A stretch of 64,000 nucleotides of DNA from Apteryx mantelli (lineage: Eukaryota > Chordata > Aves > Apterygiformes > Apterygidae): positions 32,570,583 through 32,634,582 of the forward strand of contig NC_089985.1 in the NCBI RefSeq assembly GCF_036417845.1, in the 5' to 3' direction. Of this stretch, positions 7,374-63,552 are shown piece by piece. The translations under genes were made by a program, and so were the position numbers. The notes beneath the pieces were generated by a model that was given only the letters and a program-made list of their open reading frames with translations, was not told the DNA's origin and searched no databases. How positions within the stretch are numbered: position 1 is the stretch's first letter; every line of letters starts with the position of its first letter.

Positions 7374-11923
<4,550 letters not shown>

Positions 11924-13681: not shown

Positions 13682-16600
13682 CTATATTGCTGTCTTCTCA
13701 CGGCTAAGCGTCTCCACCTCCTTCATGAACCGGAGGCACAGCTCCTCCTGCCATGGCAAAGCCACGCACTGCACGGCCACGGGCAGTCCCACAGCTCCTT
13801 CCACGGCCTGCAGTGAGGACACAAGCAGTGAGGTGTTACCCACAGAAGCTCAGACCTCCAAGATCTTTTGGAAGCTTGGCTGAGCTACATGGCTAGTCCC
13901 TTCTGACCCAAGGGCTCATCCTCGAGAGCAGGGAGGTTAGAGGCTGAGCCCTGTTGTTCAAGCAGGGGCAGGCTTCCTCTCTAAAGCGTGCTGGGACAGA
14001 GAGAAGGCTCTTGCTGTTCTCATGATGGAAATGGCTGCCAAGTCTCAGGCAGCATGTGTGAGGTCAGCCCTCCCCAGTCAGCTCTGCTTGCAGCTGTCTT
14101 ACTACGAGATCCCTTTTCCTTTAGCATCTTTGTGCCTGATCCATGCTCTGCTGATAGCCTGGGCCTGGCAGAACAGATCATGGAGCAGGAGAAAATTCCA
14201 GTGCAGTGCTGCAGGCTGTGGCTATAGGAAGGACCTACTCAAGGAAGCTTTGCTCCATGGCTTCTTCCTGGTTGCAGACTATAATCCAGGCCTTAGGTGC
14301 TCCCCCAGTCCCTCTCTGATGTTTACTGACTTGTGACCTTTGGGGCTTGGGAGAAAAGGGATTTGTGAGGCATATATAAAGTAGAGGTGACTTTTTTTTT
14401 TTTTCCTTCTCACTGTGCCTGTATTGATGGAGCCATTTAGGAACCCCTGATTTCAGCGAGACTATTACTCTGAACACCCTGAACGGCCTCTGCTCCTTCC
14501 CTTTTCGTGTAACAGACCTGCTTCAGTGTCCTGTCCCAGGGGTCGTCACAGTATCCTTGGTAAAGCTTCAGCTCTTCTTCATCAGCTTCTGTCACTGTGC
14601 TGACTGGTACAACGCCAGCAGGGAAGTTCAAGACATTGTACAACATCGTGGAGGAGATGGCAGCTGAGAGAAGCAAAAGACAGACTGCAGGTAGCCACAG
14701 CCATCTATGTTCTTTCAAACTTCAAGCATGTTCCTTAAGCCCCCTGAAAACTAGCCGCTTCTGGGGGAGATACTGCAGAGGGCTGGTTTTATGTGAGTCC
14801 AAGTCCCACTGCACGAAACAACTCTCACCAAATCACTTCATCTGCGTGTCTATCTCTGTTTGCCAGTAACGCCCATAAAATGCTTAGATAGGCAGCAAAG
14901 TTCCCCAGCAGCCCCCACAGTTGGATGTTTCTGTCCAGTCACAACCACAGTGGTCTTTTCCCTCCCAGATTCACTTACTTAGGAGTTTCCCAGGGTACCC
15001 CGTAGTGAAAGCCGGACCCAGGACAGGGCAAAGCATGACGTGCAGCCTGAGTTCCCTCCACTTGTTGATGAACTCTGTACGGTACGCCTTGGGGAGGAGA
15101 GCAGAGATGATATAGAGGGCATGTCAACACCTGGAGCATCTCAGCTTCTTTGGGCTGTGCACCAGGCTCTCACGTGGCTGGGGGAGGCAGCAGCAGGCAG
15201 ATCAGTGCATGAGGGAAAAAGGCAGGGCAAAGCAGCTGGTTACAGCATTTGTCTGCATGATGGAGAAACTTTTCCGGGATCACAACACTACCAGGGAAGG
15301 TGGGGGTCAGCGAATGTCCCAGCCCTAAAGGCTATGTACAGAGCCTCTATGGCCCCAGCTCTTGCGGTCTCTTATTGCTTTTTTCTCCAAAGCAGGACCT
15401 GCACTAAAAGCCTGTGTGCGAATGCCTTTCCCTGCCACACATGGACAAACCATGACTGAATGGCTCATGAGTCAGAAATTGGTAAGACCCCTCTTTAGCA
15501 GGCATCAGCTGCACTGGGACCACTGAGCATGGGCATTTGGGCATGAGCACTGGGCAAACCATAAAAGCCATCCTGGGTTGACCCCAAAGCCCAGGTAGCC
15601 CAGGCTTGTCTCTTGTTTGTGCCTTTCCCTCCATCTCTCCTCCTCAGCACTCCACTGCACAACCCCTTTCTTAAATAATGACCCCCAATCTGGTACTTGC
15701 TGTTAAGCCTCAACTCATAGCATGATGCCAGAGAGAAAAGTCCTCAAAACATACCATTATTTGATGCTGATGCTTCCACATCTTGTTCACTGACCTGCAA
15801 ATGGAAACCACAGTAACATTTTTAAGCCTTAAGAGGAAGGGAAGACTGCTTAAATTATCCTCCAAGTTGATACGCCTCAGTGATTTTAGCAATTATTCAA
15901 AACAGTACATCTCTCCCAATTTCTCTAAAGTTTCTTTTGGGATTTGGGCAAATGTCTGGGAGAGGTAGAAAGAAGGTTTCTCTTGTGAGGCTGGGTTTAG
16001 TACTCAGCTCTGCTGCAAGCTTACTGTATAACCTTATCTAAGTCCCTTAATCCTTTATGGATCCCAGATTTGCTACAGGAGGGATGGGCTTGTATCAGAC
16101 TACCTGAGGTAGTTGTAAAACATAGATAAATCTTTGGCATCTTGAAGAAACAAAAAGGCTGCAGCCTTTGAGAGAGCTGGAGGGAAAACTCATTTGTGTT
16201 GGAGGGTATCTGGATTCTTTATCAGTATCTTTATTGCTAGTTCCTCTTTGTAGAGAATAATGAAAATGGGATGTGATGGGTATGTCATTTAATCCTTCGT
16301 TACATAAAACTTTGCTTTAGCTTTGAAAGTGAATTTCTTAAGTGTTTCATAACTTGTCTCAGGCCCTGGGGGACTGCAATCTGATGTGGAGAATCACCAG
16401 AAATGGCGCTGACAGAAACCATCAGAGGCTGTTTTCCATTCCCCCACCCAAGGCAGGCCTGGTGGGTCTAAGCCATTGCTGACAGGTGTGCATCTGGTTC
16501 CTGGGATACCCCAGCATCTCCTGGGGAACCTCTACCAGAGGGAATGCTTCCTGAGTTCCCTGGCTGTAATGTTAAGCCTTTGACTTTGCATCCTGGCCCT

Positions 16601-19600
16601 GGGAGATGCAGGACTTAGTCTTTTGCTTCTCACCTTGCAGCAACCTAGAGCATGTTTGAAGACCTGTGGGAAGGCGTTATTATGCTAGGGGTGTGGGGAG
16701 ATGTATTCCTAAAGGCTAAAGTGTAGTCCAGGACAGAGGGACAGCCCCTCCAGAGAGTGGGTCAGAGTGTGTCTTGAACCTGGTGTCCCTCACCCCACTA
16801 TGGGCACCCGTTGCAGAAAGTACAGTTCATTTCCACAGACACCCCATTTCCCAGCAGGCAGCTGAGGAAGGTGCTGTCTTACCTCATTCCACACAAGGCA
16901 CTCAGATAGTCAGCCAGGCGGGGAAACTGAAAAGGCAAGAGGGTCCTGTTAGGGTTGGGATGTGGGGCGCAGCAACTTGTGTCATCTTGGGAGACCTCCA
17001 GTCGCAGCCCATCTCTCTCCCTGGGGATGCTGCTCTGACAGTGAATTAAATTGCTTGAAAATGTTCCTCATAGCTCTCATTTTAGTTCATTTCCGACTTT
17101 GTTGTTGATTCTTGATTTGTTTCTTTCAGCCCAATATTTGCTTCTCACAGAAGAAAGCACTGACATGAAACAAGTCACCTTTTATTATTTTTGGTAAATA
17201 AAACATCTTTTACTGTGTTATCCCACAGAAACAAGACTTCTGCAAACACTGGTTGTCTCACATTCACTGCTACCTTTTTGATCCTGTTAGTTGATAACAA
17301 CCCAATTGGACAGAAAGAGAAAACAGGATGGAGGAGAGAAACCCTACAAAAGGATGCTCACCTGGTGAAGGGGTTACAGTGAGCATCAACCCTTATTAAC
17401 CATGAGGAATTCCCATGAAAACAAGCTCTTTGGGAGGCCTCAAACACAGGCATAGCGCTTCAAACTCCAGTCTGCCTGCTGCAGTGTTTCCCAGTTGCAT
17501 GAATCAGTAGGAAACTGGGCATCACTAGCTCCAGTGTTGAAGAACTGCTTGCTGTGGACTCTGCATTATTCTTTTACAACTCTTGGCTGGTCCTTTTCTC
17601 ATTTCCTTTTGCACTATATAAATCCTAGCAAGATGCCAGAAAAGACCTTCCCAAGTGGTAGCGTTTGCCTTGGTCTGAAATCCCAGGGTTTCCATTTAAA
17701 GGCATCTCCCAGTACCACCACCCTTTCAAGCATCACAGGGCTTTCCTGACACCACTTTGCCTTGAGCCTGAGGCTAGGGACTCACCAGAGGTTTAAGAAT
17801 CAGAGCCAACAGCTTCTTCCACAGTGTTGGGATCTTGTAGCAATTCACCTGTGGTTTCAAGCCTGAATCTACAATATTTCCTGCGCTGAGAAACAAGAGG
17901 AGGAGGGGATCATGGCAGAGAAGCCATTTGCCTTATCTCAGAAATCTGAGTATCTCCTGTTTGGGGTAGGAGAGATGAGCTAGTTTTACCCATGCATGGT
18001 GCTCATGGGTGCAGGGATGAAAGTGTTTTACGGCACTCCTGCCAGAGGATTCCTACTTACAACAGATCCAAGAAAGCACGGCCTCCATCAGCAAAAAATG
18101 TCTTCAAAAACAGTTCGGTCATGACATAGTGGATCCGAGGTGGAGCAAATGGCACCAACTGCATCAAAGTACAAGATTATGTGGCAGCTTGGGGATGTGA
18201 ATAGTTTCCAGTGCCTGACTGTGGAAATACTTCAAATGCAGAACAGCAGCCTCCCAGGGCTCCACACACCTGTGGAGAGCCCCAGTTCATCCCTTTCCCA
18301 TGTGTGATTATTCTTCCCTGAGGGCTGCTCAGCCCAGCTCTGAGATCTTTCCAGAGCCATTTCCTCATCCTATTCTAGGCGATCACTGAGCCAGAAACTG
18401 CACCAGTTTCCAGCATGTCCCAGCAGACTCAACACCTGCTCAAACACAGACTCACCTTGCTATAAAGATCAGGTAACATTAACACATTTGTTACAGGTAG
18501 GTCTAGACCGAGGGGAAGGTGTTTTCCAACCCCTGCCAATGGCCCTTTTCCCTCTGTGGTCCAGGAGAGGGCTCCCTGGACATTGAGGAGAAAGGGGAAC
18601 GATGGCTCCCGAAGCCCTAGTGGGGAAGGACAGATCTAGAAAAGGCCAGGCCAGCCTTGCAGGGACAAGACGCAGCATGTTTACAGAGCTTTCTGTCTGG
18701 TCTGCAAGGAGACAGAGATGGATTTACTAGTCACCTGTGCTCTTTCCCCATGAGAGGGCACTGCTATAACAACCTGATAGGCGATGTGCTGGCCTACAGT
18801 GTGTGACTGCATTGTGCATATGGATGTAGTAACTTTCACCAGAATCTCTGTTACCTTCGATTATTTTTCCCACGCTGTTATCCTTGGCTAGTCCATTGTC
18901 AGATGGGTTTGGGGGTTATATCTACTCTCTGAAGAGTGATTGCAACAAAGAGAGGCAAAGATTGAGGCACCTTGGGGAGAAGAATTTGGTGAGGTCACAC
19001 TCACCTCATGCCCGGCTGCCCGCAGAGCATCCCTGGTTTCATGCACTGCCCGTCTCATGCAAGGAGGGAGTGGGAAGTAGCCATCCGTGTCGTAGTACCC
19101 AATCCGGAGGGGAGCAGAGCTTGAATACACCTAAAGGAAAGGAGCCACTAGTTAAAGACTTCCAACTTTACTGTGACTAGGCCTGCCCACATCCTGAAGC
19201 CCACTGCAGAAGGGGATAAAAGGTCTAGGTATTAGAGAGCTGCTGCTTATGGTTTCCACGAGTTACCCTTTCCAAATGTCCAGTGCCCCCCTTTGTCTCC
19301 AGTCTCTTCTTCATCCCTCCCTTCAGATAAAGCACAGCCACTCAAGACCAGCTGGTTCAGCCATTGCTACAAAGGAAGGGGCTAGGAAAACCTCCTGAAG
19401 TTCATCTGCACAGAGGGAGAGGAAGCGTCTTCGGTCAGGAGAAGATTTGCTGCAGGAGTTACCCAGCCTGTCCCATCTTCCCTTAAAAATCTCCATTTTT
19501 TGCTCCTGATGTTCTCTTCCTTCCCCACCCTTTGCTGGGGTATCTCAGTCCAATAATCCATATGCCAACTGAGAGGCAGAAAGAATACTTTTTTTGCTAG

Positions 19601-22600
19601 CCATTCTTTTTCTAACAATTATGACTTGTGCCTTCAAGGAAAATTAACAACGTTGTTGGAAACCTATACTGTAAGGATTCGTGGGCCCTTAAAATGTATG
19701 TATGCTGAGCAGGTACTTTTTCCTTGGTGTCCTGTGGGATGTTCAGAGCTGGCTGGATACTGGACCCTCCCTCCCTTCATCTGTCCCATGCCCTGGTGTT
19801 ACTGTCTTTGTAACTCCACAGTGGCAAATTCCACCTCGGACTTCTCGTGAATCGCCCCTGAAGAACACGAAATAAACAGTAACCTTTTTATGTTTTGACG
19901 TGAAAGCACCCTCAAGAGGACCAGGGCTCTTTCACTAATGACTCACCTCCTCGTTGAAGGGGATGGGAGGCACGGTGGGGTCGAGCTGGAACATCTCCTC
20001 GCACAGCAATGCTTTCATGCACAGGGCCAGGCTGTCCACGTCCCTTGCCATCGGCCCCAGCGCACAGGGAACTGGAGGGGGAGGAGAACAAACGTCCACT
20101 TTAAGCAAGCAGGTGTACCAAACACTGGTCTCCTCCTCTGTGTGGCCTAGCTGACTGCAAGGGACAGTCAGGCAATGAGGTGGGATGTTCCAGAGAACCT
20201 TCTGACAGGTCTTGGCTATCTCAGACCTTCCTCAGGTCTTTGCTTTAGATTTTGCTCAGGATGTCTGTGCTGTGGGGAAAGGTAAGCTCAAGGTAGCTGC
20301 AGGGAGACCACTGTTTGCCTCTTTGCCAGCCCATTCATCTGGACTGCCTCTGCAAAAGCAAATGCTGTAAGAGGCATCAATCCTTCAGTTGTACTTAAGG
20401 AGGGTCTAAACATCCCCACCAAAATAGGATGTTGTCATCCTCTGCTTTATGTGGACAGACACATAAAGAGCTGATCCTTGAATTGAAGACAGATGGGTTA
20501 AACAGACAAAGTAGAGACAGGGAATACAACCTTTCTGCTTCTACAGTAGGCCTTAGAGATGACATGACTTCACTAAGGTGTCCCTAAGGAGCTGTGACAG
20601 TCTACAACTGGGTATACTGAACCCAGGCCAAAGCCTCATGCTGTGCTATGAAGTGTCCAGACACAAGCAAACCTGACCTCTCCCTCCTTCCACCCTTCCT
20701 GTTCTTCGCAGCATATAGAGAAAAACAATTCTAAATTCACATACCCGACAGAATCCCATCGATTGGGCCACTTGCTCCAGACAAGCTGGGAGGGGGCAAA
20801 AAAAATGTATACTGTCATTTCAATAACAGATATTGCCAGGAGGTCTGAATGGACAGTGGGGTCTTCAGTCTGAATTTCCATTCCCTCACCAGGGAAATGC
20901 GGTTCTGTGTGACCAGGCAGCTGTTTGCTGATCCATCAGTTTGCTGAACCAGCCCCAGATTGTCCTTGATTGCAGTGCATGTAGGACAAGGTACATGTGA
21001 GCTCAGAGGGGCTGTGTGTACCTCAGTAAGGAGCAACATGGGTTTGCAGGCTCCTTGCAGAGCAGGAAGGGCAAACCCCAGCACCTACCTGAGCCTCTCG
21101 CTCGTGGGCTTGAGCCCACACAGCCCGCAGAAGCTGGACGGCAGGCGGATGCTGCCACCAATGTCCGACCCAATGCCCAGGATGGAGCCTCCCCCTGCAA
21201 TCAGAGCTCCCTCCCCACCGGAGGAGCCTCCGGGGCTCTTCTTGTGGTTGAAAGGGTTCAGTGTCTGGCCAAAGATGGCATTACTGCAGTCGTAGCTGGG
21301 GAGAAGAAAAGCAGCAAGCAGACTGTCAGGAACAGCCTAATGCCTTGACTTCGCTGACTGTTCCTTACTGTGAGCCTGTGTGGCACAGCCAACCCCTGTC
21401 ACCTTGTAATCCCTTTGGGACATGACTTGTTCCCATCAGAAAGAGTTGGGAACTGAGGCACAGGCTGAGGTCACAGATCACTGTGTGTGGGCAGGGAATC
21501 AAACTGGGGTCTCTGAGTCCCAGAGCTGTATTCAAGCTGTCTACTGTGGGTTGTGGTGAAGAAAATGCATACCCCAGTTCTCCCTCACATACATGAGTGC
21601 ACTTGATTTCTTTCATTGTGTGTCTTTTCCCCTAAATCTTATATAAAAGCTATTTTCAGCTGAACTGGGATTGTTGGCAGCTGATTGGAGGGGGAAATTG
21701 GCCAGGAAACATCTCAAGAAACACACAGGGAGCCTGTCCCCTGACCCTTGGGCTGGGTTTTAGCTTCAGGTGTACAGCCAGAGGAGACATTTCTAATGAT
21801 GTACTACCTGAAGAGGGATTGCGACACGTTGGTAAGTGCAAATGGGATGGCCCCCTGTCTCTTCAAAACCTTGACTAGGACGCTGTCCTCTTGCACCGGG
21901 GTGTTCAAGAACTGCACAAGCCCACAGGTCGACAGATGTCCCTGCAAAGAGGAGAAATGACAGTGGAGAGGGTCAGTGAAGTTCCTCTGCAGTTTCAGCC
22001 TGCAGTTTGGGAAGGAAGAGCTGGTGTCCATGTTTGGGGTACTAGTCTGCTCCCTACTGTGTGTGCCCTTGCACAAAGGGCCAAGGACTCCTCGTCCCAG
22101 TGATGCCCGTAGCAGCAAAGGGCTGCCAAGCACTTGCAGGGTTAAGGCTTCTCCTAAAGCTGTCCTTGCTCCTTTTCATGCTATTTCTCTCCCCCATCCC
22201 AGATGCAACTCCACAGGTGCTCTTCCTTTACCCACTATCTCAAGATCAAACCCAGTATCCTGCTCTCCAGAGGTAGCCAGTAGTGGAAGTTCAGGGAGGC
22301 AGTATAAAACCAGGCAAACAGTGTACTCCCTTCTCAGTTATTCTTGGTGTCTGGGGCTTACTTTTGGGCTTGAGCACTCTTAGCTGTGTTGGTAACTCAA
22401 CATGGAGCAGACAGCCCAACAAATTCAGCTCAGGAGTCTGTGGTCTTCAAGGCCAGTCCTCATCAGGGCTTGTCCCTGTGACAGGGTCACTAGTGCATCT
22501 GTTCTGAACACAGGTTTATGGCTAAGGGGCTCAGTGGTCTGGTGTATAACTATTCACCCCTTGGTTTTGGCTGATGGAGGCTCTGGGACAGACTTGCTGA

Positions 22601-25226
22601 TGCAGTTGGGTTCCCCTGCTCAGGAATTCTTGCATTGAGGCTTTGGACGCACATCCTCTTCTGGCAGCCGAACTGCTCATGTGATGGCTCCCTAGCCTGC
22701 TTCTGCCAGCATGAGCAGGGTTAGCAAAGATCTGCTCTTTAAACTGCTCTGGCTTTGCTGATTTTTTCTGTTCAAAGTGAAAGCATTCAGAAGAGCAGCA
22801 CTGCTGATGCGGTGGCAATGCTCATCTCCATGGAGGAGCAGCTCTTGAACTGCTAGGGCTGCAACTGCAAGGAGATGTGGGGCCACAGCTTCAGACCAGC
22901 AGGGTTTCCTGTGGTGTAAACAGGAGGGGAGGATTAGGCCCCTTTCCCATCCTCTTGTGTCCCCCTTACCTCATAGCCCATCTAAATTTGAGCCTAACTC
23001 TCAGTGGGATGCTTCATGGGCACAAAGGGAAAGCACCTTGTGGCCAATGTGATCCTTGATGCTGATGGGAATGCCATAGAGCAGCCCTTTCTCCTTTCGC
23101 CGTTGTATTTCCTGGAGTTGCTCCTCACACTCTGGGATAAAATGTCGCAAGCAGTTTGTCTGCTGGGTCACTTCCAGGGCCTTTGCCGGGACACATTGAG
23201 AAATATGTGTTAGTTAAGAACAATGTAATTACTTAGATGCATTTGGTAGCTACCTGGATCCGTAAAGCAAGGACTAATGACTCGGGATGGAAGATAAGCC
23301 CTCCCTAGAGCATCCCAGCTCAAACCCTTTAAAAAGACTGTCCAGTGAGGGGTCTGACCGAGGAGACAGAGAGATCCCTTCCCTTTCATATCTTTTTTCT
23401 GATATCTGCTGTATTAAAGACTTGTCATAATCAACAGCTCCAGCAAGTCTCCTCAACCACCAGCCCCCACACCATGGTGTGGGGAATGTAAGTGATTTGC
23501 CCTTCATGCTCTGTATGGGTTCTCACCTTCTCTACATAGGTGTAGAGGACTGTCTCAGGAGACAGAGACCCTTCCCGCAGTCTCCCGGCAAGCTCCACCA
23601 GGGGCAGGGACAGGATGGCAGCAGTCTGGGCATGCGAGATCTGCAAAGGGAAGAAGGGCATGCCAGGACAGCATCTCCAGGTACCTGAGGCAGGGGCCTG
23701 TGCCTTGGCTCAGAGAGGGTAAGTCCCTTAAGTTTTGTCAACGTTATCAACTGAGCTTTCTGGAAAGGCAGACTCTGACTGTTTCAGCCTGAGTTTGAGC
23801 TGATCTGCAGGCCTTGTGGATAGCATGAACATGCTGTAAATCACAGCAGCCCAGCTGTCTCTGAAGGCATAGAAGAACTTCACACATCCACTGCAGCAAG
23901 GGACAAGGCAATGTGTCACTTCTGAGCCTTCCTCCATGCACTGTGGCACTTACCCACAACTGAAAGGTAATCTCAGCTGTGCAGACACCAGCGCTAATGA
24001 GCTGGTAATGAATTCCTTGCACACAAGTCTCGGGTTGGCCCTTCATCCCTCAGTGTGGGTACAGGCACTGTGCTATCAGCCCTGGAGTCAGCCCAGTCTG
24101 GCCTAAACATCTAATAATCCAGGTCTGGCAAACTACAAAGAAGCCAGTAGGGGCTCACAGGTAGATAAGGACTACTCAGATGAATAAGCCTGTCAGATCT
24201 CAGTGCCACCAACTCTTTTTAAGGTTTCATACTATATTCAAAAGAAAAAATTTCTAAGGGTCTTAGCTGGTATGCTTTATGTGCAGGTATGTTACCTGTG
24301 TAAACGTGATGGTTTAACCAGGACATACTCAGAAGAGAACGGAGCAGGGAGGAAAGGGGGTTAACAATCAGTGTCACAGTAGGAATTTGTGACCGCATCC
24401 GTGCTGGTTGGGTGCCTGCCTTATTCACCCCTGCTGCGTCCTGGTTGCTCCCAGAGGGCACCAAATGCCTGTGCTTCGTTAGTGTTAAGTCAGGCCAAGC
24501 ATCTTCTGGGCAGCCTGCTGGGCTGGGAGGCCTCCCTGGCTAGGATCCCTGGTGAAAGCTTTTTTGAAGACTCTCTAAGAGCCATCAAGAAGCCAGGTTT
24601 TAGAGCCAAAGATATAGGGGAAGGATATGGACAGATGAATAAACTCAGAGTTAGGAAAATAAATTAATTTCTTTCTTGTACCCATAGAGGCAAGAGACAT
24701 TTCCAGGTCCCTCAAGAACTTGAATTTGGATCAATGAAGGTCCAGTGCTTCATCACCTGTGTTATCCAAAACCTCTTCCCAGTGCGTAATTCACATCTCC
24801 CTGGCTACAGACTCCCACTGCATCTCATTCAGCTTGAGGAAAGCAGTGATCTCCCTTCCTCCCAACGCAGCCTTTCCTCTTGTTGAAGGCTGCTGGCACA
24901 TCTCCTCTGGGCTCCTTGTTATAAAAGCTATAGAAGGGTGAACTAGAAGGAGGAGATGGAGAACAACATCAGCAGACCACCCCGGTGTGACTCAGACCCC
25001 CCCCCTAGAGGCACATTACCTGTTCTCTGAACTGCTGAACAGCCTTTTCCATTTTTTTCACACCCTGATCCCGGGTCCTCCGAGCCTCTTCCATTTTCTC
25101 CTGAATCTGCCGTTTGCCCAGCCATTTCCAGAATGCCATGGCTGCAGCTGAGCCACAGAGCAGGGCAAGGGCAGCAGAAGGACTCACCTCCCCATCTGGC
25201 AGGAGCTGTCTGAGCTGTTGCTGCAT
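13682..25226 (-). CDS. FAAH-like amidase, copy A (complete, 15 exons)
   Basis: Amidase-signature serine hydrolase of the FAAH type; FAAH cleaves fatty-acid amides such as anandamide at internal membranes. Minus-strand exons: 25226-25020, 23640-23527, 23180-23037, 21941-21808, 21295-21089, 20785-20745, 20071-19947, 19130-19005, 18158-18061, 17885-17786, 16926-16883, 15794-15755, 15087-14979, 14663-14518, 13807-13682. They join in frame to 586 codons (human 579). An N-terminal membrane helix ([17 protein letters not shown]) is followed by a charged helix with MEEARRTRD. Triad residues are present: Lys in PISIKD (about 149), Ser in [11 protein letters not shown] (about 224) and nucleophile Ser in [10 protein letters not shown] (about 248). 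DPTVPPIPF matches the proline-rich loop. [16 protein letters not shown] and [13 protein letters not shown] form the membrane-cap region. The C terminus has [19 protein letters not shown]. It is nearer to copy C than to D, and is plausibly a 'vitamin D3 hydroxylase-associated protein'-type paralogue. It looks functional. Confidence 0.93.
16000..16085 (+). repeat. MIR-like SINE remnant
   Basis: Plus strand reads 'ctcagctctgctgcaagctt' then 'ataaccttatctaagtccct', the order and spacing of the MIR core (…gctctgccac…gaccttgggcaagt…cttaacc…). Short and diverged; it lies in the copy A intron between exons 11 (16926-16883) and 12 (15794-15755). Confidence 0.5.
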
Positions 25227-26898: not shown

Positions 26899-28128
26899 TT
26901 ATTGATAGGTGAGCAGCTCTGCCTCCTTCATGAACTGGAGGCACAGCTTCTCCTGCCATGGCAAAGCCATGCACTACATGGCCACAGGCAGCCTCACAGC
27001 TCCTTCCACAGCCTGCAACAGGGACACAGGCAATGGGAAATGTCTGGAAGGGAATGAGGGTTGAATCCTCCCTGAGGGAACACAAATACCTTTTTACACC
27101 CTCTGAGTAGACCTTTGGGCTGCTGAGGCACTTCACCTTGCACAGGGACCCCAGGAAGTTAAAGAGTCCTTCCCTTGGATGGGAACAGCTACATAGAGGC
27201 GGACGAGCTGATGTCCCGGTGGAGGACTTTGTGTGGACTCACAGCTAGGCTAAGGGGAAGAAGAGGTGTTTGGGAAAAAAAGGTGTCTTCTGAGAAAGAG
27301 ACCACTGTCCTCATGGATTTGGGAAGCCAACTCTGAGTTTATCATATCCCTGATCCCAGGAATCCAGTTCACAAGAAATGCTTCAGCACTGAGGCAAAGC
27401 GGGTCCAGCATCAGGGATGTTCCAGATCCGGGCATCCGCTGTAGGAAGCCTTTTCACTCCCTCACCCCACAACACCATGGTGGCCCACACAACTTTCAGC
27501 TGTTCCCAAAAGCACAGCTGCAATGAGAGTTTTAGCTAAGACAGACCCTGGACTGTCTCAGGGCAAATGCTAGATACAGGGGCCAGTCCCCGTGCACCTC
27601 CAATCCCAACTCTGCATCACTCGGAGGCCCCAGAAATGCACAAGACTTGGGCAAAGAAATTTCCTGGGCCTACTTCTGCCCCCCATGCAAAATGGCCTTT
27701 CTTGCTTCCAGCTGACCTGTTTCAGCTGCTTAGCCCAAGGGTTCCTGTAGTGCCCTGTGTAATGTTTCAGCTCTTCATCAGCTTCCATCACTCTGGTGAC
27801 ACAGCTCAGTCCTGTATGGTGGGAAAGGCTTACCTGGGTGTCAAGTGAGCCAATGGATCATTAACTTTCTGTACAATGTGAGTTTAGAAGGATATGGGAA
27901 AATATAGATTTTTTTTTTTCCCCTCCAGATCTTTCTAACACTGCCCAACTTGCCAAGAAAAATGTCTCTTACTTCTTTGATGGCTTCTGTCTCAGTCCAG
28001 AAACGACTGTGTAAGCAAAGGCATAGTTAAACATCAACCCCCTCCCAGGCACAACCCCCCACCATTTCTATCAGGGAAGTAAAATTACCTCCAGCACAAT
28101 GTTCTGCGTCCACAGGTTCTTCACTGAC
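26899..28128 (-). pseudogene. FAAH-like relic B (three 3' exons only)
   Basis: Three recognisable FAAH 3' exons in the right order. Exon 15-like 27012-26899 reads AVEGAVRLPVAM, then an in-frame TAG where copies A and C have CAG (Gln), then CMALPWQEKLCLQFMKE, ending in TAA after LLTYQ. Exon 14-like, about 27820-27717, keeps MEADEELKHYTGHYRNPW and the donor after KQLKQ, but its 5' part (the FPAGVVPV region) is scrambled and frame is lost. Exon 12-like 28128-28089 reads SVKNLWTQNIVLE with intact splice sites. No exon 13 is seen in the 260 bases between exons 14 and 12, and nothing 5' of exon 12 is recognisable up to copy C. It is a dead tandem duplicate rather than a processed copy, since intron positions are kept. 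Confidence 0.85.
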
Positions 28129-28269
28129 CTGGAAAGTGCAAAGACCACAGCAAACCTATAAAATGTCGCATATCTGTAATGCCTTGCCATGCCCAAAACA
28201 CTTTGACATGAACTAACCCATGCTCACAACCTTCATGTAACATGGTTGAGCATGTTGCTTTCCCCATTT

Positions 28270-52400: not shown

Positions 52401-55400
52401 GTCTGTTCCCAGTGGGTTTGAGTGCACAGATCCCACAGAAGGCAGCAGGCAAACGCAGACTCCCTCCAAGGTCTGTCCCGAAGCCCAGAATGGACCCACC
52501 TGCTGCTATGAGTGCCCCTTCTCCACCGGAGGAGCCTCCGGGGGTTCTGGTGTAGAGCAGAGGATTGAATGTCTGGCCGAAGATTAAGTTCTCACAGTCA
52601 TAGCTGGGGAGAGAGAGAGCGAGCAGATGAGAGAAGTGTAGATACCTGTTGATGTGGAAGGTCGCATGGGAGACCCAGGCCACAGGCTGGCCTTAAAAGC
52701 TTCTATAATAGGCAGTTCACCAATTGTTACATTGACATCCCGTGGGCCTAGAGAGCTTCCCAAAACCCCTGAGAAGACCAGCATTTTCACGGTGGTCCAA
52801 GAACTTGAATTCATTGCCAACTAATTTTAGTGCCAAGTCATCCCCAGACCAAGACGACAGACCCTCTGGCAGCACAAATGCATCAAACCTCTTGGGAAGA
52901 CTCCCTGTTCAGGCAGTCCTGAGGGCCACTGGCCATCTGAAGCAGCCTGTCCACTGCAGGTCCAGGCCCTCCTGCGGTGGGAGGGATGGCAGAGCAGGAG
53001 CCCCTGCTTGGGAACAGGCTGAATGCAATCTGCAGTGATACTTGAACACGGGTTCCCCCAGGAACCAGCGTAAAATCTGATAATCCCGGGGCAGGCCCTT
53101 TGTGTGGCTTTTTTTTTTTTTTTTTTTGAAAGCACGGCCAATCATTGCCACAAAACTAAGGAAGGCAGTTCTCAGGGGCTGAGCAACACTGGAGGAACTT
53201 TGCCAGTTCACTTGGCGGGACACATGGATGCTAGCGGGGCAGCTGTCCAGGAAAGCACACCTGACCTCATCCATACCAATGACACTGAGAGTGGTCTTGC
53301 CAGCCACGTCAGGAGCTTTGGTCGGCACGATGATTTAAGGTCGTTAACTTAAGTAGCTAACTAGTTTCCCCCTCCACGAATGGGCATTTGCCTCTGAGGG
53401 TTTAGTTAGATAAAAAGTAGTTTAAAAACACCCAGCACAGGAAGAAAGGGCAGATTTCTCTTCTTCTCCTCTTTTGTTTCTTTATTTCATTTGGAATTAG
53501 AATTAATTTTCATTCTGAGTAGCTTTAAAACTTAGAGAGACTAAGGAAGGGGAATAGGTGTCATGATTTAAAAAGAAGGGGGAAATGCGAATTAGCCTAT
53601 AATTAATAGAAACCCTCCTGTGAGATCAGGGAGTGAGGAATCCCACTACCGCGAGGGAAGGGAGCGGAGGGCAGGCGGCTCTCCACCTACCTGACGAGGG
53701 ACTGAGGGACGTTGGTTTTCACGAAAGGAACTGCCCCCTGCCTCTTCAGCACCTGCACCAGCACGCTGTCCTCTGCCGCAGGGTTATTGATGTTACTTAC
53801 AAACCCTATCGTGGAGTCGTAGCCCTGGGAACGGAGGACAAAGAGGTTTCCACACGGAGGTTTGCAGTGTTCCTCAGCGGCGTGGTTTTTATGTAAATGC
53901 AGAAGACCTTTTAAGCACCCCAAAGTGCCTGCTTACATAATACATTGTGCTATTTATAGAGGTATGTGCATGCACCTCCAGTACCGGTCCCCCTAGTTTG
54001 TGTAGGGATGTCACAAGGATGACAGACAGACTGAGGTCCCCAGGGGAGATGGTGAGTGCCGGAAAGCTGCTTTTGAAGTGGCTTTTCCTCACTCCCCTGC
54101 TGACCTCCTGTTTCCTCCCCTTTCTCTGCTACGGGAAAGAGGTCACAGGGCCCCGGCACAGCTGTCGTGGGAAGGACGGTGCTCAGGAACCGCGCTACTG
54201 GCTGAGCCACAGATGGGACCTGCCCTACAACACCCTGCCATGGACTGACGGGATATTCTGGAGCAGAGGAAACACCTAAATAAATCAGGGCATTGACCTG
54301 CAACTAGTGGTTCATGAGCATGAACTAGTGGTGAGGATGCCCCCATCCGGCACACGCACATAGTGCATTTGTAATAAATCTGATCAGCCTTCTCCGTTCG
54401 CTCGTGTGGGAGATGGGCAGCAAATCCCATCACCTGGCAGGGCAGTGGCACCCCACGTCCGCTAGAGCAAGTGCTGCGGTGCAGCCAGACACGGAGGTCA
54501 AACCTCCCCCCGCCGCCAAACCTGAAATCGTGGGGACTTCGGGACACGCAACGCTGGTGGTACCTGGCAGTTGATGGAGTCCTTGATGCTGATGGGCACC
54601 CCGTAGAGCAAACCCAGCTGCCTGGGCCGTGCTGCTTGCTGGAGCTGGGTCTCGCTTTCCTGCAGGTAGTCCGTGATGCAGTTGGTCTCTCTGGTGACTT
54701 GGAGGGCCTGGGGGAAACCAGCAAAGTCCACGGGTGAGACGCAGCCCGCACCATTGCACAACGCTGTTTTGAAAAGGGCATCTGCCTCTTCCCCTTTGCC
54801 CACCTCCCCATTTGGGCAGTTTTATATCAGGGCAGCCCTTTGCACCTCTTTACAAGATGTTTTCATGCCAAACTCCAAAATGCTTTTTGGATGCAGGGAG
54901 ACTATAGCGTTGGCTGGTACAAATGGATGTGTCCCAGCTGGCACTCAGCCTGGCAGAATGCAAAAGCTGTTCCCCTGATTGTGCTTCTGCTGTTGCATAA
55001 AGTAATAACACCCAAAGTGTAAATCCAGGGGGGATCGGGGCATTCTGGCAAAATTAGAGAATGAAACCAAACACTGAGTCTTTGAGGTTTTCCGGCCCAC
55101 TTAGACATGGAGGGGAGGGGACACATACCAGCACCCAGCAACTTAGTAAGTATAGCTTGTAAGGTGTAGCTTATACATGCCCCCAAATACGTATGGGCTT
55201 CCCAGATGCTGTGCTTGCTGCCCCCCTTTTCTCCAAGCCAAGACCAGAGCTGTAGCAGCCAGACACCCAGATCTCCTTAGCTCGCAGAAACATGCCGAAG
55301 GAGCCAGTGCTACCCGGCAGGCGGTGGCAGCTCAGCAGCGTCCGAAACAGGCAATGCCCTCCCGCTGGGTTTCTCCCAGCAGAGCTGGTGCCAGCTCCGG

Positions 55401-57054
55401 CGAGATGCCACCCGCGCTCCTCACCTTGCCCACGTAGGCGTAGAAGACCTGCTCCGGAGGGAGAGAGCCATCGCGGAGTTTCCTGGAGAGCTCCGGCAAG
55501 GGCAGAGAGAGGATGGAGACCGTGTCCACAGAGGGATGCTACAGGAAAGATTGGACACGGAATGACCCTCCCCTCCTTCGGCTGATGGGCCAAGGGCTCT
55601 GCCTCTCCCCTTCGTGCTCATCCTAGAAATATCTGCCATTCAGGGGCCAAATGATCCTAATCCAATGCCTGCCTCAAGACTGCAGCCCTGCTCCTGGTGA
55701 GTATGGGAGAAAACCCGCAGAGTTAGTACAAATCCAAAGTTTGTGTGCGCCCAGCCAGACTGCTCTTACCCTGCACCTGCTGTTCAGGAGAAAATCTTCA
55801 CAAAACCTTGTTCAGACAGGCCACAGCTGAGCCTGGGGGCTCTGCTCAGCACAGTTTTCCCTGCTGAATGGCAGTGTGTACTGGCCCTGTGTTTGCAGAT
55901 GCTGCTCCAGCCAGGAATGAAATTGGCCCTGGCGCCAGCACTTCTCCTTGCGTCACCACGGTGGCCTAGGGAGAGCCTCGGCTCGGAGCACAGGGGTCAT
56001 TTTTGAGCCAGCAGAAATTTTCCTGCTGTCTTCTAAATATTTTGAGAAAGCAGCAAGCCTCATTCCCCAAGCTGGGCTCCGAGCCCGAGCGAGTTTGCTC
56101 ATACTGTCGGGTGGGCAGTTTGACGGGACCGCAGCCTGCCCGAGAGAAGCAGCACACACAAGCTGGATTTGAGGACAACTCAGCTGGACACGAGCAGCTC
56201 CCTGCCTCCGCGCCATCACCCCTGCCCTGCAGGCACAGTCCCCAGGTGGTGCAGCTGCACTTTGGCCTCCGCCTGCAATATATTCCCTCCCGCCTCTTCC
56301 TACAGCCTCTTTATTAGCCAGGACGAGCATTTTACTGAGGTGGAAGAGGCCAGGGAGCACTAACAGCGCTTTCAAATGAGAGGCAGGAGTTTTTCTCCTC
56401 TTGCTCTGAGTTACTTTTTGCTGACACCTGCTCTGCTGCCCATCGCCCTCCTCTGCTCGGACAGCCCTGTGCAACCCCATAAAGCTTTTCCTCCCCTTCT
56501 CCGTCGCACTCCCCAGGGGAGTTTCCACGCAAGGGGGTGCCTGCATTTCTAGGGGGTGCAGGGACACACAGGTTTTAGGAGGAAACTCCCCCTGATTAGG
56601 AGGCAAGGCCTTAAAAATAAGCCAGGACCCAGTTTCATTCCCAGGCAAGCCTCCGACACCACTGCAAGCTGCGTGAAAACAGCCCGGCCTCCCACCTGCC
56701 CAGCAGTTGCCCATCGCAAAGCCACAAACCCGCTGCCTGCAAGAGGGGCTCCACACCCACCACCCCCTGCACGCTCATGGGAAAAGGACCGCTTTGGGCT
56801 GGGTGATGAGCTTATGCAGGATGGGCGGAGGTGTTTGCCCCTCTACAGCCTCCCCCCATGAAGATTATTGCACCCACCTGCTTCCGAAAGCCCAGCGCAG
56901 CCTTCTCCATCTGTGCCAAGCCCCGATCGTGCCTCTGCCGAGCCTCCTTCACCTTCCTCCAGAGCCCCTTTCGCCGTCGCCATCGCAGCAGCAGCAGGAG
57001 GCTGGCAGCCGAGCAGCAGAGCAGGGTGGGCAGGAAGGGCAGAGACACCCGCAT
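46469..57054 (-). CDS. FAAH: FAAH, fatty-acid amide hydrolase (copy D, complete)
   Basis: Integral-membrane amidase that ends signalling by anandamide and other fatty-acid amides. Minus-strand exons: 57054-56878, 55538-55425, 54707-54564, 53824-53691, 52603-52397, 51980-51940, 51151-51027, 50792-50667, 50284-50187, 49585-49486, 49185-49145, 48456-48417, 47318-47210, 46834-46689, 46597-46469; 576 codons (human 579). ATG at 57054 ([14 protein letters not shown]) begins the membrane helix, followed by a basic stretch [11 protein letters not shown]. Triad: Lys about 139 (PISIKDS), Ser about 214 ([13 protein letters not shown]), Ser about 238 ([10 protein letters not shown]). [12 protein letters not shown] and [11 protein letters not shown] are near-identical to human. 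Exon 11 is 41 bases, the length the human alignment predicts, against 44 in copies A and C; this and overall similarity make D the likely orthologue. [16 protein letters not shown] and [12 protein letters not shown] form the membrane cap. The proline loop is DSTVPPLPF. Its start lies in a CpG-rich segment, and it faces copy E head-to-head. Confidence 0.93.
47995..48070 (+). repeat. MIR-like SINE remnant
   Basis: Reads 'ctctgccactaatctgctgg' directly followed by 'gtgactttaggcaaaccagt', matching the MIR core (…ctctgccacttactagctgtgtgaccttgggcaagt…). Lies in a FAAH (copy D) intron. Confidence 0.6.
49915..50040 (-). repeat. MIR-like SINE remnant
   Basis: Plus strand: 'gtggggaaactgaggcgcag', 'caaggttaaacaactcacac' and 'aaagtcaggaaccaaaccca', an excellent reversed MIR core and tail order. 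Lies in the FAAH intron between exons 9 and 10. Confidence 0.65.
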
Positions 57055-59128
57055 GGTGGGGACCGTGACCGCGATCGCGAGCAGGGTGTCCCCTCTCCTC
57101 CCGCAGCACCTCCGCACCCACCGGGGACTCTCCCTGCCTGGTCCAAGGCCACCCGCTGGCAGATGGGGAGCGGGGGAAGAGGCAGGCAAAACCTGGGAGG
57201 GATCTGCACGCAGGAAAGGGCTGGACTTGCTGCGAAGCGAGTTAGCTGGTTTGCAGCTTCGCAGGCACAGCCAGTGCCAGCACACGCCGAGAGGAGATGG
57301 TTTCAGAGCTGGGAGGCTCCTGTACAAAAACCCACCCCTGCTTCTATGCTGCTGGGTGGTCCCGTTCTGATGGGGTTAATATTGCAGTTTCCTAAATGAG
57401 ACTTTGATCTCGGGAGTGTGTGTGTCTGTCTATGCCCCTCCCTGCAATTCTGCAGCCAGTGCTCTCCGGGAATGGCCTTGGCCATATCAAAAGAGCAGAG
57501 AAGGTTCCTGAAAATATCTGGCTCCTGTGTGTTTCCCGAACCCAGGCAGCTGTGGGGGAGAAAAAAACAATTAATGCCCTTGGCCTTAATTCAGTGCAGT
57601 GTTCACATCACAGGCAAAGCATGGGTGAGGCAAAGCGTGGGTGAGCGCCTGCGCTTTGCTAAAAACCTCAGCGTCCAGACTGGAAAGCTGGCGTCCCTGC
57701 TCCCCCAGGGAAGTGCTTGCCTGGGCTTGCAGTTTGGAGAGAAACGCCACAATGATTTCTTTCTCCATGGGTCTGTCCTAAAAAAACCCCCCACTGCTTG
57801 CAAAAGTTCATGCCTGAATATTTCAAGCTGTCCTGTTTAGATGCTCTCTATAGGATCATGGAAAAACTGGTGGGAAGGATTTGGGATGTTTTCTTTGTCC
57901 TCCTGCCTCCCAGCAGGATCGGCTGTGCCTAAGCCATCCCTGGCAGATGTGGTGCTGAGCTAGAAAATGCGATGGAGGGTGACATCCCCCAGACCTGATT
58001 TTCCTGGCGTTACTGTCAGGCCACTGGCTTTGCTTCAGCCCTCAGGCCATCAGGACTCCCCTGGCAGCACCCCAGCGACTGGCAAGAGACCCTGGCCGAG
58101 AGGGAGGGAAACGCCACGCTGCATGTGCGCAGTGTCCTGGGACTCTCCGTGCCAGAGGGCGTTGAAGCCATGCGAATATTCGACGTGGAAAGGCTGAAGC
58201 CCACGATGTGAGAGGCCTTCTTCACCCAGGCGTGCGCTGTTTGGGTGAAGAGCCTTCTCTGAACTCATGGCTCGCAGCTTCTTGCTCTGTCTTTGAGCAC
58301 AAGCATCTCCCTGTTAATTTGGATCAAGAGGTAATGTGCAGCAACAGCTTTTATTTCCCAGCCACTGTTTGTTTTTTTGTTTTTCTTTTCCCCCTTTTTC
58401 CCCCACTCTGTTTGGCTGTGGGGTTTGGAGGGTTAGACGGCAGCGCGAGCTTCCACGGGCACTGCAGTCCCATGAAAATTACTCCTGTACCCTCTCCCCG
58501 CCGTCAGCCCAGCTTAAAACCTCTCACGCGGGAAAGATTTCCAGCTTTTCAGCTTGTCGGAAGGAAGCAAATAAAACAGGAGCTTCGAGCCCGGCGCGCA
58601 GGTCCCCCCAGGCACCGCTGCGCAAGACCCACCTTCTCCCCTCTCCCGAGCGAGCGTATGGGGGGGATAAACGCGGCGGAGGGGATGTGCCGTGCGGGAT
58701 GGTGGCAAGCCCCGGACCCTCGCGGGAGCGCGGGGAGCCCCGAGCGCCGTGGCGGCACCGGCCGGCTCTGCTCCGGGGTTCCAGGCGGCGGTTGGAAGCG
58801 GGCGGTTGGGCACCGGTGGTGCCGCTGGCCCGTGGCCCCGTGCCGGGGGACGGCCGCGACGCGCTCCGGCGGGGGGACGCAGCGGGGGCTGGCGTGAGGT
58901 CTGGGGGCACCGATGTGCCGTGGAGCCGAGCCCCACGCCCCAGCCAGGAGAAAGCGCCCGGGCCGCCCTTCAGAGATGTGAAGTGGGTCCGGCCTCGCTC
59001 CCCAGGGGTTGTCCAGCCTGCTGTTACTGGGAAGCAGGTCCAAGCTTCACTGACAGCAGCTAGCGGCCTCTTTTCCTTCGTTTCTTCTCTCCGTGTACGT
59101 TGCTGACTCCTGAGAAGGCTTTGCCACC
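57055..59128. promoter_or_regulatory. Divergent intergenic region FAAH / copy E
   Basis: About 2.07 kb between two start codons pointing away from each other. A CpG-dense block lies at about 58580-58980, nearer to copy E, with tracts such as 'gagcgcggggagccccgagc'. The FAAH exon 1 region itself (56900-57180) is also GC-rich with many CpG. A plus-strand T-rich patch (58360-58400) sits between. No TATA box was recognised. Whether one shared or two separate promoters operate cannot be told from sequence. The large open frames here are GC-driven and show no domain. Confidence 0.5.
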
Positions 59129-62100
59129 ATGATCTGTGAGAAGGTGAAGCAGCTCCTCTCGGCGTTTAGGGATAACCCCTGCTCCATCCCCATCCTGGTG
59201 TGCAGCTCCACCGCAGCCCTCAAGGCTCTCGCCTGGGCCGTGAGAAAGCTGATGAAGAGGAAGTTTGTCCGAGCTAAGCACCATGCAGAGGCCCTGGAGC
59301 AGATGGAGAAGGCTGTCCAGCAGTTCAAGAAAGAGGTAATGTCACATTTGATTCCTTTTGTCCCTGCAAGAAAATGGCATGTTTCAAATGAGGGTGTGGA
59401 CATCTGTTCACTTTGTAGTCACCATTGACTGCAAAAGATGCTAGTCCTCCTCGCTGTGCCTCCAGAGCTCAGTCAGAGGTATGGCTGGTTGCTCCCTAAT
59501 CTGCTTCAAGCTGGAGTATCTGAGTTACCATAAACAGGTTGAACAGGCAGTTTTTGCCAGCTTGGTGGACACTGCTCTGAAGCAGATTAGGGAGCGCTCA
59601 CGTATATTCTCCACCAGCAGAGCTGAGGGGAACTGGTCTGGAAGAGGACCTAGACTTGTGCAAGCTTCTTTGCTCAGCCTGTATCTCATGCTCCTCATCA
59701 GGGCACCTGCTTCTCGCACACCGGGGAGCAGATGGGGGTCCAGAGCTCGCTAACTCCATGCATGCTGGAGGGAAGGGATCACTCAGCCTAATGCTGGCAG
59801 GATCAGGTCCTAAATTAGTTGCAAATCATTCCTGCTTCCATGCAGGCTCTTTCACTTCACTCACAGCTCAAACTTCAATCACTATGATTTTCCAAACACT
59901 GCTGGCATTGCCACATGCTGGCAGTGCCTAGCACAGCTGGTTTATCAGCAGCCTAGCCTTTAATAGGGCTGACTCCCGATATGAACCTGTTTTCCTTTTG
60001 GGGTTTGTTATAAACAGGAGTTCATTTGGGTGAAGTTAAATTGTTCCTGACACCTTTGCAGAACCCGGATGTCCAGACTAGCCACATCCTGTCACTGCCG
60101 CTCACGGAGCTGGTGGAGAAACTGAGGGAAGGTTCCCTGTCTCCGGAGACCATCCTCTACTCCTACATAGAGAAGGTGAGGGACCAGCCCTGCTAGGCAG
60201 GACAGGCAGCAGATAAATCCCCAGTCTTTTCTGACCGTAGAACAAAGAAGTCCATCTCCCTGAGTTTTTCTTTGTCACCTGTCCAGCAGAAATGGCCCTG
60301 GTTCTCTTGTTCTGCCTGTGCAGAGGACTGGTGCTCTGGTACAGGGACAGATCCTGCCTTACTGTGTGCCTGCAGAGCACCTTGCACACCTTCCACTGTG
60401 GCAGGAGCACCAGACTGCAAAGGGCTAAGAAGGACATCCAGTCCAGGTCCCCACAGGTGCATTAACCATCACAAGTACCATGCTCAAGATAGATAGTGAT
60501 GTGTTTAAAATCTCTTTCGTGAGAAAAAACCCTGCTTTCTTCCAAGGCTGAATGAACCTCAGATATCAATTAGGAAGGTTGTCAGCTAAGGGCTCATGGG
60601 CCAGATACAGTCCATCAGATGAAGTGCTCAGCTCCTGAAGATCCTTCAAAGGGACCTTCAAAGGGAAACCCTGGGATGGAGCACTTTTTAGATCAAATAG
60701 GAAACAGCAGAGAATCTCCCAGAAGGTAGTGGTGGGTTTTCTCTTCTTGCTAATGCATAACTTTAAAGAATAAGCTCAGGACAGCGAGCTGCATGGAATA
60801 GAGAGGTGATTGGCCTTTCTCTTCTGTTCTGTGCTTCCGTGCTAAGGCCTTAGAAGTCAACCAGGAGGTGAACTGTGTGACAGCATTTATTCCTAGCTGC
60901 CTGCATCACATCCAGGAAATGAGAAACCAGAAGAAAGGGTTGCTCTACGGTGTTCCCATCAGCATTAAGGATCATGTGGCTTGCAAGGTGTTTCCCCTTG
61001 TCCCCTTATTTGGGAAGCTCAGTGTGTGGAGCTAAGAGCTGGTGAGCAGTCAGGTTGGCAGATGTGCACATGCCATGTCATTGAGAAGACTGATTTATAA
61101 TGGGCTTTTTCCTGTGTCTACTCACCACTGCATCCTGCTGGTTAGAAATAGATGCCATAAACCCTAAACTGCTGCCTCCCTAAGGCAATTCCCTCCAGCT
61201 CCAGCTGTAGGCAAGGCACTGAACCACAGCACTGATCCCTCAGTTCCCAACCCTGGTTACCTCTTCAGGAGGCAAATTTTGCTCCCTGTATTGATGCCAT
61301 TTGCACTGATTTCAGTGGCTACCTCACCATGGTGCCTATCTCCACTAATCATGTCTTTCGCTGGACTCCATGGCAACTGCCTTTCAAACCCGCTTCCTCC
61401 AAATGGTCCCACCCCAAAACCTGGTGTCAAGCATCTTCCGATAGGACTGGGTAGGAGCAGAAAGGTGAAGGGCTCAGAGCCATGAGGAGAGTTGGAGGTG
61501 TGAGGAATGGGCAAAGCCTGCTCTGGGTGAGGGGAAAAGGGACCTGAAGTCAGACCTCCACAAGGGGAAATGCCCAATGGGGAAAGGAGAGAGGACTGAA
61601 GTGTGGGATAGGGAAGAGTGTCATAGTGTTTAGAGTCACTTGAGCCTGAGGTTGGGAATAAGGGAAAAAAGGCCTATTTGCATCTGACTGCAGCTACATG
61701 TTGGTCCTAAAACTTCCCTGGAGTGTCAGACTCTTTTTTGGGAACAGCTTCAGGCTGGAGACATGGTTTCCATGTCTCCATGGGCCCAACACTCAAGTTG
61801 GGCCTGCAAGCTTGCTTATTAGCAGCGGTGCCGTATCCCCACTTCTTATCTCTAACGAGTTCTGTGTCTGCCCTCTGGGTTCAAGGGCTATGGCTGCATC
61901 TGTGGTTCGGGACCGAAACTTAGCCTCCTAGAGCAAGAGGAGAGCGTGCTGGTGAGAGTGCTGAGGAGCCAAGGAGCCATCCCCTTCGTGAAAACCAACA
62001 CGGCACAATGCGTGATCAAGTAATTGGCGGGACCTACTTCAGTAATGGTGGCCATGTCTTGTCCCAGGCTTAGCCCTGTGGAACTTGCCCTGGGACATGG

Positions 62101-63552
62101 TCTTGGGGGGGCGGTAGAAAATGCCCCCTGACTCCCTGAGACACCGCTGAGACCTTTGCTTCAGGAAGCTGGAGAGGGGCAACAGGGAAGAGTGCAATTC
62201 AGTAGCTGCTCTGCAATACACTGAGCACTAATTTCTCTACAAGGTTTCACAGACCAGGCAACTTAGACTCTGTCCCCTTCCTTGAATTTGAAGCCACCTC
62301 AGGGCCTACCTATTGGCATAACCGTGGTTCAAGGTGCATCCATTTCTGCCCCTTACACTTCTGCTTGGCCACCCTGCAGCCACCAATGCTCCATCATATG
62401 GATGCAGCTGAGCTGAGGACAGTAGCAAGGCCCAGCCTCCTCCTTCCCTCTGTTCTCCACTCATGAGCTCTGTGGTCCCTCATGGGTTTTGTTTTCCCCT
62501 GTGCTTGCACTGCTGTTGGAAGAGGGACCAAGACTCGTCAGCAGCAGGCTTGTATTGGCCAAGTAGTCCATGTTGTCCACTTCTGAGTTACCCAAGTTGT
62601 TCTCACCCAATTGAATTTACCCACTGAGTGAGTGCTCCCCCATCCTCCAGAGCAGGGATGATGAGCAGGTTCCCGGTGACTGACTTGTCCCTTTCGATCT
62701 CTCCCAGCTATGACTGCAGTAATGCCATTTATGGCCAGACACTGAACCCTCTCAACCACAAGAAGAGCCCTGGAGGCTGCTCTGGAGGGGAGGGAGCTCT
62801 GTTCGCAGGAGGAGGCTCCATCCTGGGCATTGGGTTGGACATTGGTGGCAGCATCCGCCTGCTGTCCAGCTTCTGTGGGCTGTGTGGGCTCAAGCCCACG
62901 AGTGACAGGCTCAGGTAGGTGCTGGGGTCTGCCCTGCCTGCCCTGTCGAAAGTCTGTGTTTTCTGACTGACATTTGCAGGCTAGCACAACTGAATTCCCA
63001 GCCAGCCCCTTGCAGGGTGAGGATGATGTGCTCAGCATGCTCTTCCCACTTCAGGAAGAGATGCCCTGAAGGAGCTTGGTCTCAAGAGCTGCAGATGGGA
63101 TGTATGTCGTCTAGCCTTGCCCTCCAAAGCCAGGCAAAGGGCTGGGAGAAATCACCTGGCTCAACCAACCCACAAAAGCTGACATTTAGTCTGGAAGGGG
63201 CCACCAAATGTCCAACCCACATGTCTTGTCATCCACAGAGAAACTTTACAACCTTTAGGAGGCAAGCCACAAAGCAACCCAGTGGCCAGAGAAGGGAGAA
63301 CAGGAGCAACTGTGGGTGTTGCCAGTGTCTGAGGGACCTGCAGCAACTAGGGCTCCTAGTTGCAGCCCTGCCCACAAGACTTTCTTCCTGATCACAAACC
63401 TTGGGCAACTTCCCCTGGGGCAGGCTTTCAATCTCTGTCTCACCCTCTGTCCATGAGTCCCAGATACTGCTGTCGTTTGTATTTAAAAATGTGTTTCTTT
63501 CTCTTCCACAGTTACTGGGGAGTTAGTGGTCCAGTGCATCGCCTCCAAACAG
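59129..63552 (+). CDS. FAAH-like amidase, copy E (5' six exons, runs off window)
   Basis: Inverted family member on the plus strand. Exons: 59129-59335, 60062-60175, 60847-60987, 61886-62019, 62708-62914, 63512-63552; about 281 codons, frame kept throughout. The ATG has a strong context (gccaccATGa). N terminus: MICEKVKQLLSAFRD, a weaker hydrophobic helix, then [15 protein letters not shown] as in copies A and C. Exon 3 is one codon shorter than in the others. Lys is present in PISIKDH (about 148), and the nucleophile Ser in [10 protein letters not shown] (about 247). The GGSSGG motif is GGCSGG, so the triad's cis-Ser (human Ser217) is Cys at about 223; the position equal to human Thr236 is Leu. 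SIRLL replaces the usual SIRLP. No stop or frameshift in what is visible. Exon 7 was not found in the last 448 bases, where intron 6 should still be running. It may be a modified enzyme or a pseudoenzyme. Confidence 0.9.

Follow-up and report, generated by a model that had tools for sequence, protein, structure and literature searches.

In the window, that is, the whole 64,000-nucleotide stretch of Apteryx mantelli DNA that was analysed, spliced alignment delineates a cluster of FAAH-like membrane amidase genes at positions 13682-63552. Three of its members (A, C and D) are intact, one (B) is a relic and another (E) is partly visible; the limits of the cluster are the stop codon of A (13682) and the last base of exon 6 of E (63552). 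FAAH is an enzyme that degrades fat-derived signal molecules and thereby ends anandamide signalling. The features discussed here are the following:

5268-5441, plus strand: UQCRH exon (PF02320), flanking anchor
11648-11920, plus strand: last coding stretch of NSUN4, flanking anchor, tail-to-tail with A
13682-25226, minus strand: gene A, FAAH-like amidase, 15 exons, 586 aa, intact, K142, S217 and S241 kept
21058-21318, minus strand: exon 5 of A plus intron flanks of 23 and 31 bp, likely conversion tract shared with E
26905-27827, minus strand: relic B, exon 15 and remains of exon 14, maybe a scrap of exon 12
30160-43256, minus strand: gene C, FAAH-like amidase, 15 exons, 588 aa, intact, triad kept, G239A
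46469-57054, minus strand: gene D, FAAH1 orthologue, 15 exons, 576 aa, intact, triad kept
58201-59300, no strand: CpG-rich stretch lying where D and E diverge and including the start codon of E
59129-63552, plus strand: gene E, exons 1-6, open frame, S217C, T236L and P245L, runs off the window
62684-62945, plus strand: exon 5 of E with flanks, other side of the likely tract

Gene models of the cluster

The models were obtained with a purpose-written spliced aligner, the query being the FAAH1 letters of solved-structure matches in the PDB; 22 residues missing from this FAAH1 reference were filled in, and the ends of exon 14, the starts and the stops of the models were fixed by direct reading of the DNA. 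A, C and D each comprise 15 coding exons, with an AG acceptor and a GT donor at 14 of 14 junctions, no internal stop, and a common series of intron phases (0,0,0,2,2,1,0,0,2,0,2,0,1,0). E is visible in the window as exons 1-6 alone (59129-59335, 60062-60175, 60847-60987, 61886-62019, 62708-62914 and 63512-63552), with an open frame, normal splice sites and the same first five phases. A six-frame motif scan located the amidase-signature exon at four sites, of which one lies on the plus strand and the other three on the minus strand, and in an all-versus-all comparison of translated fragments the exons of A, C, D and E matched in order, B being represented by two late exons.

The Pfam family PF01425 was matched by all four proteins A, C, D and E (best E = 1.2e-109), with C reaching 367.8 bits over positions 3-445 of the 445 in the profile. 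Among the solved structures, FAAH1 was matched by a draft of D with E = 2.4e-156; taken together, these matches exclude chance. A preliminary description, made from the letters of this DNA, had proposed a local expansion of the FAAH family in which A, C and D were complete 15-exon minus-strand genes with the same intron phases, and both proposals are borne out, the former by the gene models and the Pfam matches, the latter by the splice sites and the uninterrupted frames. Furthermore, a hydrophobic N-terminal segment is present in all four proteins, the best 19-residue Kyte-Doolittle mean within the first 80 aa being 1.63 in A, 1.81 in C, 2.11 in D and 1.66 in E.

Relic B had been regarded as a dead copy, and indeed its last two exons are what is left of it. 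Exon 15 (26905-27012) carries an in-frame stop, and exon 14 (27717-27827) has lost its first part and lacks one codon. A possible scrap of exon 12 (28101-28127, 9 codons) lies upstream at the expected place, a weak match with E = 0.10. At the nucleotide level, exon 14 of B most resembles that of C (77%, versus 69% for A), and exon 15 is 86% identical to C and 87% to A. A more complete fifth gene in this interval was considered and rejected: support there is confined to exons 14 and 15 and possibly exon 12, and the remaining aligned segments have none.

Genomic context and orientation

The cluster lies beside two anchors, UQCRH and NSUN4. The best solved-structure match of the UQCRH exon is 3cwb chain H, which we take to be a chicken structure; such a match agrees with a sauropsid origin of the DNA. 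A minus-strand open reading frame at 926-2116 lacks a Pfam match and has as its sole solved-structure match a leucine-rich-repeat protein (E = 7.8e-6 over 42 residues); it may correspond to LRRC41. The human gene order is LRRC41, UQCRH, NSUN4 and FAAH. Another open reading frame considered for NSUN4 (12758-13255) gave no solved-structure match and was discarded. CR1 repeat ends, sought in the window as a hint to the lineage with two motifs at up to one mismatch, were not found.

NSUN4 and E are read from the plus strand and A, B, C and D from the minus strand, and the start of E faces that of D across the CpG-rich stretch. The observed/expected CpG ratio is 0.22 at the starts of both A and C, which are CpG-poor, 0.43 at that of D and 0.65 at that of E. 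The gene E had been described as inverted and head-to-head with D. The head-to-head arrangement stands; as to the inversion, it is probably the A-B-C-D block, rather than E, that has been turned over relative to NSUN4. Indeed, when the A-D block is flipped, the order becomes NSUN4, D, C, B, A, E, with every gene on the plus strand, head-to-tail and with FAAH first, and, as one inversion of this block is enough to restore such an array, a single inversion offers the simplest account. The ancestral state would thus have been a head-to-tail array of NSUN4, D, C, B, A and E, from which one inversion spanning D to A would have generated the head-to-head pair of D and E. This polarity takes human NSUN4 to run in the same direction as human FAAH. 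Human FAAH runs toward higher coordinates, with FAAH-OUT downstream, according to published coordinates.

Relationships and age of the copies

Protein identity to the FAAH1 reference is 58.6% for D, 55.0% for A, 53.9% for C and 47.5% for E, the last over six exons. Among the copies, A and C share 66.4% of residues, A and D 54.8%, and C and D 54.7%; over its six exons, E is 59.4% identical to C, 57.5% to A and 49.6% to D. This is the pattern to be expected if the split between FAAH and the A-C lineage were older, and the split between A and C younger, than the separation of D from its mammalian counterpart.

D was joined to the FAAH1 reference with bootstrap/SH-aLRT values of 99/99 in a tree with four bacterial outgroups and of 100/99 in an unrooted five-row vertebrate tree from which exon 5 was left out, and A, C and E fell outside this pair in both. 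The outgroups are four plasmid amidases, taken from 15 listed among 980 matching records; they are distant, and their branches were flagged as long or of odd composition. A genome-contig scan for closer relatives suitable for rooting retained none of 167 pattern matches. With these bacterial sequences the A+C+E clade was not recovered, though it was not rejected either (p = 0.16), and neither were A+C (p = 0.111), A+E (p = 0.402), C+E (p = 0.367) nor, by the AU test, an A+C+D+E clade without the reference (p = 0.161). The A+C+D clade was rejected (p = 0.003), and this constraint shuts out E too, hence it is no test of the age of the split. Because the bacterial root is far and the other clades are not rejected, both the dating of the split and the grouping of A, C and E as one lineage depend on the distances and the unrooted tree. 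The distances, together with the midpoint of that tree, lead us to infer that the A/C/E lineage would predate the separation of mammals and sauropsids.

Two other origins of the copies have to be weighed. That they are spurious duplicates, arising from misassembly or from separate haplotypes of one gene, is hardly conceivable: pairwise dS between copies ranges from 0.85 to 1.94, which rules out such duplicates, coding nucleotide identity is 59.5-70.3%, and the 32 matches obtained when the window was compared with itself by blastn lie nearly all at the exons of the cluster, none reaching 300 columns and the longest having 248. A birth of the FAAH-like copies after the sauropsid-mammal split, straight from a single D-like FAAH, would agree with the A+C+D+E clade left standing by the AU test, and is nevertheless unlikely, since D is nearer to the reference than to A or C and its pairing with the reference has support of 99-100. 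Moreover, genes annotated as VDHAP in goat and salmon and a pseudogene beside human FAAH might point to older copies. An A/C/E lineage older than the split is thus the reading that we retain.

Catalytic residues and expected activities

K142, S217 and S241 are named as the FAAH triad in PMC9779292, which also lists the residues of the substrate channel, and were found essential by mutagenesis according to PMC7033180. A, C and D retain all three, and C carries in addition G239A in the oxyanion-hole strand. Seven channel residues (Y335, F381, F432, D403, I407, R486 and W531) were compared in A, C and D, their positions being outside the visible part of E. F381 and W531 are kept in the three proteins; Y335 is kept in A and C and replaced by F in D; none of the three has retained D403, I407 or F432, and R486 is K throughout. 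Given that most of these residues vary even in D, substrate preference is unreadable from them, and claims about substrates are accordingly weak. Between A and C, dN/dS is about 0.21 (0.243/1.14). A, C and D would be active membrane-anchored amidases working by the Ser-cisSer-Lys mechanism; D would cleave fatty acid amides, anandamide among them, whereas the substrates of A and C would be other amides, and B would have died.

A probably shared catalytic exon and the proposed fate of gene E

Exon 5 carries the catalytic residues S217 and S241, and it is there that A and E are unusually close. The proportion of synonymous differences between them (pS) is 0.19 in exon 5 (10.0/51.5 synonymous sites) versus 0.62 elsewhere (90.8/146.8; Fisher p = 1.2e-7), and the minimum over 130 equally sized windows outside exon 5 is 0.46. 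Their similarity amounts to 90% over 262 columns and extends into the introns, by 23 bp on the upstream side and 31 bp on the downstream side, the tract being the longest of the self-matches mentioned above. Sites informative about the grouping of the four genes favour AE|CD in exon 5 by 8 versus 1 and 2, and are evenly distributed in exons 1-4 and 6 (27, 31 and 29). As judged from these sequence comparisons, gene conversion has probably carried exon 5 from one of the two genes to the other; it could have been copied in either direction.

In this same exon, E departs from its relatives. K142 and S241 are kept in E and a cysteine occupies position 217, so that the Lys-cisSer-Ser triad is incomplete, and further changes of the signature exon affect I225, T236 (T236L) and P245 (P245L). 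In the five-row tree without exon 5, the terminal branch of E is the longest (0.80, versus 0.23, 0.35, 0.44 and 0.56). Of the sites on which the other rows all agree, 13 of 96 are changed in E, 11 of 94 in D, 19 of 102 in the reference and 4 of 87 in both A and C; such counts do not single out E, which is marked rather by where its changes are located. S217C, T236L and P245L, together with the longest branch, make it probable that E is impaired, and we place it, from its residues, as an amidase-signature homologue and not as an active amidase. With the bridging Ser217 turned into Cys, E would have weak or no hydrolase activity, and would be either decaying or used for binding.

Some of these observations would also fit other explanations. 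That A and E differ so little at the synonymous sites of exon 5 might reflect constraint on the nucleotides themselves, in codons or splice enhancers, rather than conversion. The pS of exon 5 is also lowish between A and C and between C and E (0.42 each; p = 0.015 and 0.022), the similarity of C and D likewise enters the introns by 24-33 bp, at 71%, so that the extension seen between A and E is not decisive alone, and exon 15 of A and C is also 91% identical over 115 columns. However, windows elsewhere equal the drops of the A-C and C-E pairs (lowest values 0.44 and 0.42), which leaves the A-E pair alone as outstanding; the three pairs involving D have an ordinary pS in exon 5 (0.66-0.69, with no drop, p from 0.19 to 1.0), and the grouping of A with E comes from exon 5 alone. 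Constraint is thus an unlikely explanation, and conversion is preferred. As for E, it might be a functional amidase in which Cys217 productively takes the place of Ser217, with shifted chemistry or substrate; the open frame over all six visible exons, the normal splice sites, the start codon inside the CpG-rich stretch and the conservation of K142 and S241 would agree with such a possibility. It seems improbable in view of the long terminal branch, of the accompanying alterations at I225, T236 and P245, and of the essential role assigned by mutagenesis to S217 in mammalian FAAH (PMC7033180). A more elaborate proposal, in which E would be a complete and expressed paralogue that acquired the Ser-to-Cys change after an exon exchange with A, would serve as a lipid-amide binder or altered amidase and would share a two-way promoter with FAAH, is very doubtful.

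Comparison with known systems

Chicken VDHAP, which we take to be an amidase-signature membrane protein related to FAAH, offers a possible label for A, C and E. That they are of this kind, as the preliminary description had proposed, is a plausible lead. D resembles vertebrate FAAH1 in its whole-length match, its triad, its N-terminal hydrophobic segment and its neighbourhood of NSUN4 and UQCRH, as in human. In contrast, A, C and E differ from FAAH1 by the lower identities given above and by their position outside the pair formed with D, C also by G239A and E by S217C. Altogether, we give a probability of about 0.8 to the reading of this locus as FAAH beside UQCRH and NSUN4, in which D would be FAAH itself and A, C, E and the dead B FAAH-like paralogues, with the activities proposed above, the conversion between A and E and the inversion included. 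The system is of a known kind. Beyond the preliminary description, it shows a probable inversion of a block of genes, what is likely a conversion tract on the catalytic exon, and a paralogue whose bridging catalytic serine is changed.

VDHAP is a propionamide-metabolising amidase according to the title of a published paper, and in other publications the name is applied to genes of goat and salmon too, hence it is not specific to birds. In humans, FAAHP1/FAAH-OUT is described as a FAAH pseudogene and a 13-exon lncRNA, and a microdeletion starting about 4.9 kb downstream of FAAH takes in its first two exons. The earlier statement that human has one FAAH at this place had omitted the adjoining pseudogene, which may be likened in kind to relic B. 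A truncated, catalytically inactive variant of FAAH known as FLAT has been assigned a proposed role in anandamide handling; it would provide a precedent for a role of an inactive FAAH protein such as E may be, with the difference that FLAT is a variant of FAAH itself and E is a separate gene.

From the perspective of the locus, the gene that ends anandamide signalling would be accompanied, outside mammals, by older relatives, which raises the question of whether these are living counterparts of the human FAAH pseudogene region. If A and C were of the VDHAP type, a second set of membrane amidases would have to be considered in work on the endocannabinoids of birds and reptiles. The exon 5 tract of A and E and the S217C change of E are specific and easily tested. 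No published account of such a FAAH-like cluster was named in the titles and abstract openings among the matches listed, a scope that leaves most subscription journals outside. The expression "fatty-acid amide hydrolase 1-like" does occur in a zebra finch paper (PMC6693190).

Minor sequence features of the FAAH-family cluster and its flank

39977-40183, alanine in place of Gly239 (FAAH1 reference numbering) in the intact FAAH-family gene C, within the amidase signature's oxyanion-hole strand
~21820-21892 (gene A, also intact) and ~40566-40638 (gene C), both approximate, a 73-bp match of 74%, picked up when the flanks of exon 5 were compared
28101-28127, a scrap of nine codons similar to exon 12 of C, lying upstream of B, a relic FAAH-like copy
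58201-59300, CpG-rich stretch between the divergent genes D (the FAAH1 orthologue) and E (FAAH-like)
926-2116, minus strand, ORF of 396 aa near UQCRH
7506-7751, imperfect GC-rich tandem repeat within the CpG-rich 5′ region of NSUN4

In the sequence alignment, A, D, E and the reference all carry Gly239, and C alone has alanine at this position. The A-C match sits upstream of exon 5, in or near exon 4, and is therefore probably exon 4 itself. As for the relic, the exon 12-like scrap may be a sign that B formerly extended further.

The CpG-rich intergenic stretch includes the start codon of E. Genes A and C have CpG-poor starts.

Among the flanking features, the ORF ends in a leucine-rich-repeat-like stretch; it is probably LRRC41. 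The NSUN4 repeat reaches 85% over 118 columns in the self-comparison of the window, and a repeated peptide in the translated-fragment comparison reveals its 64-bp offset.
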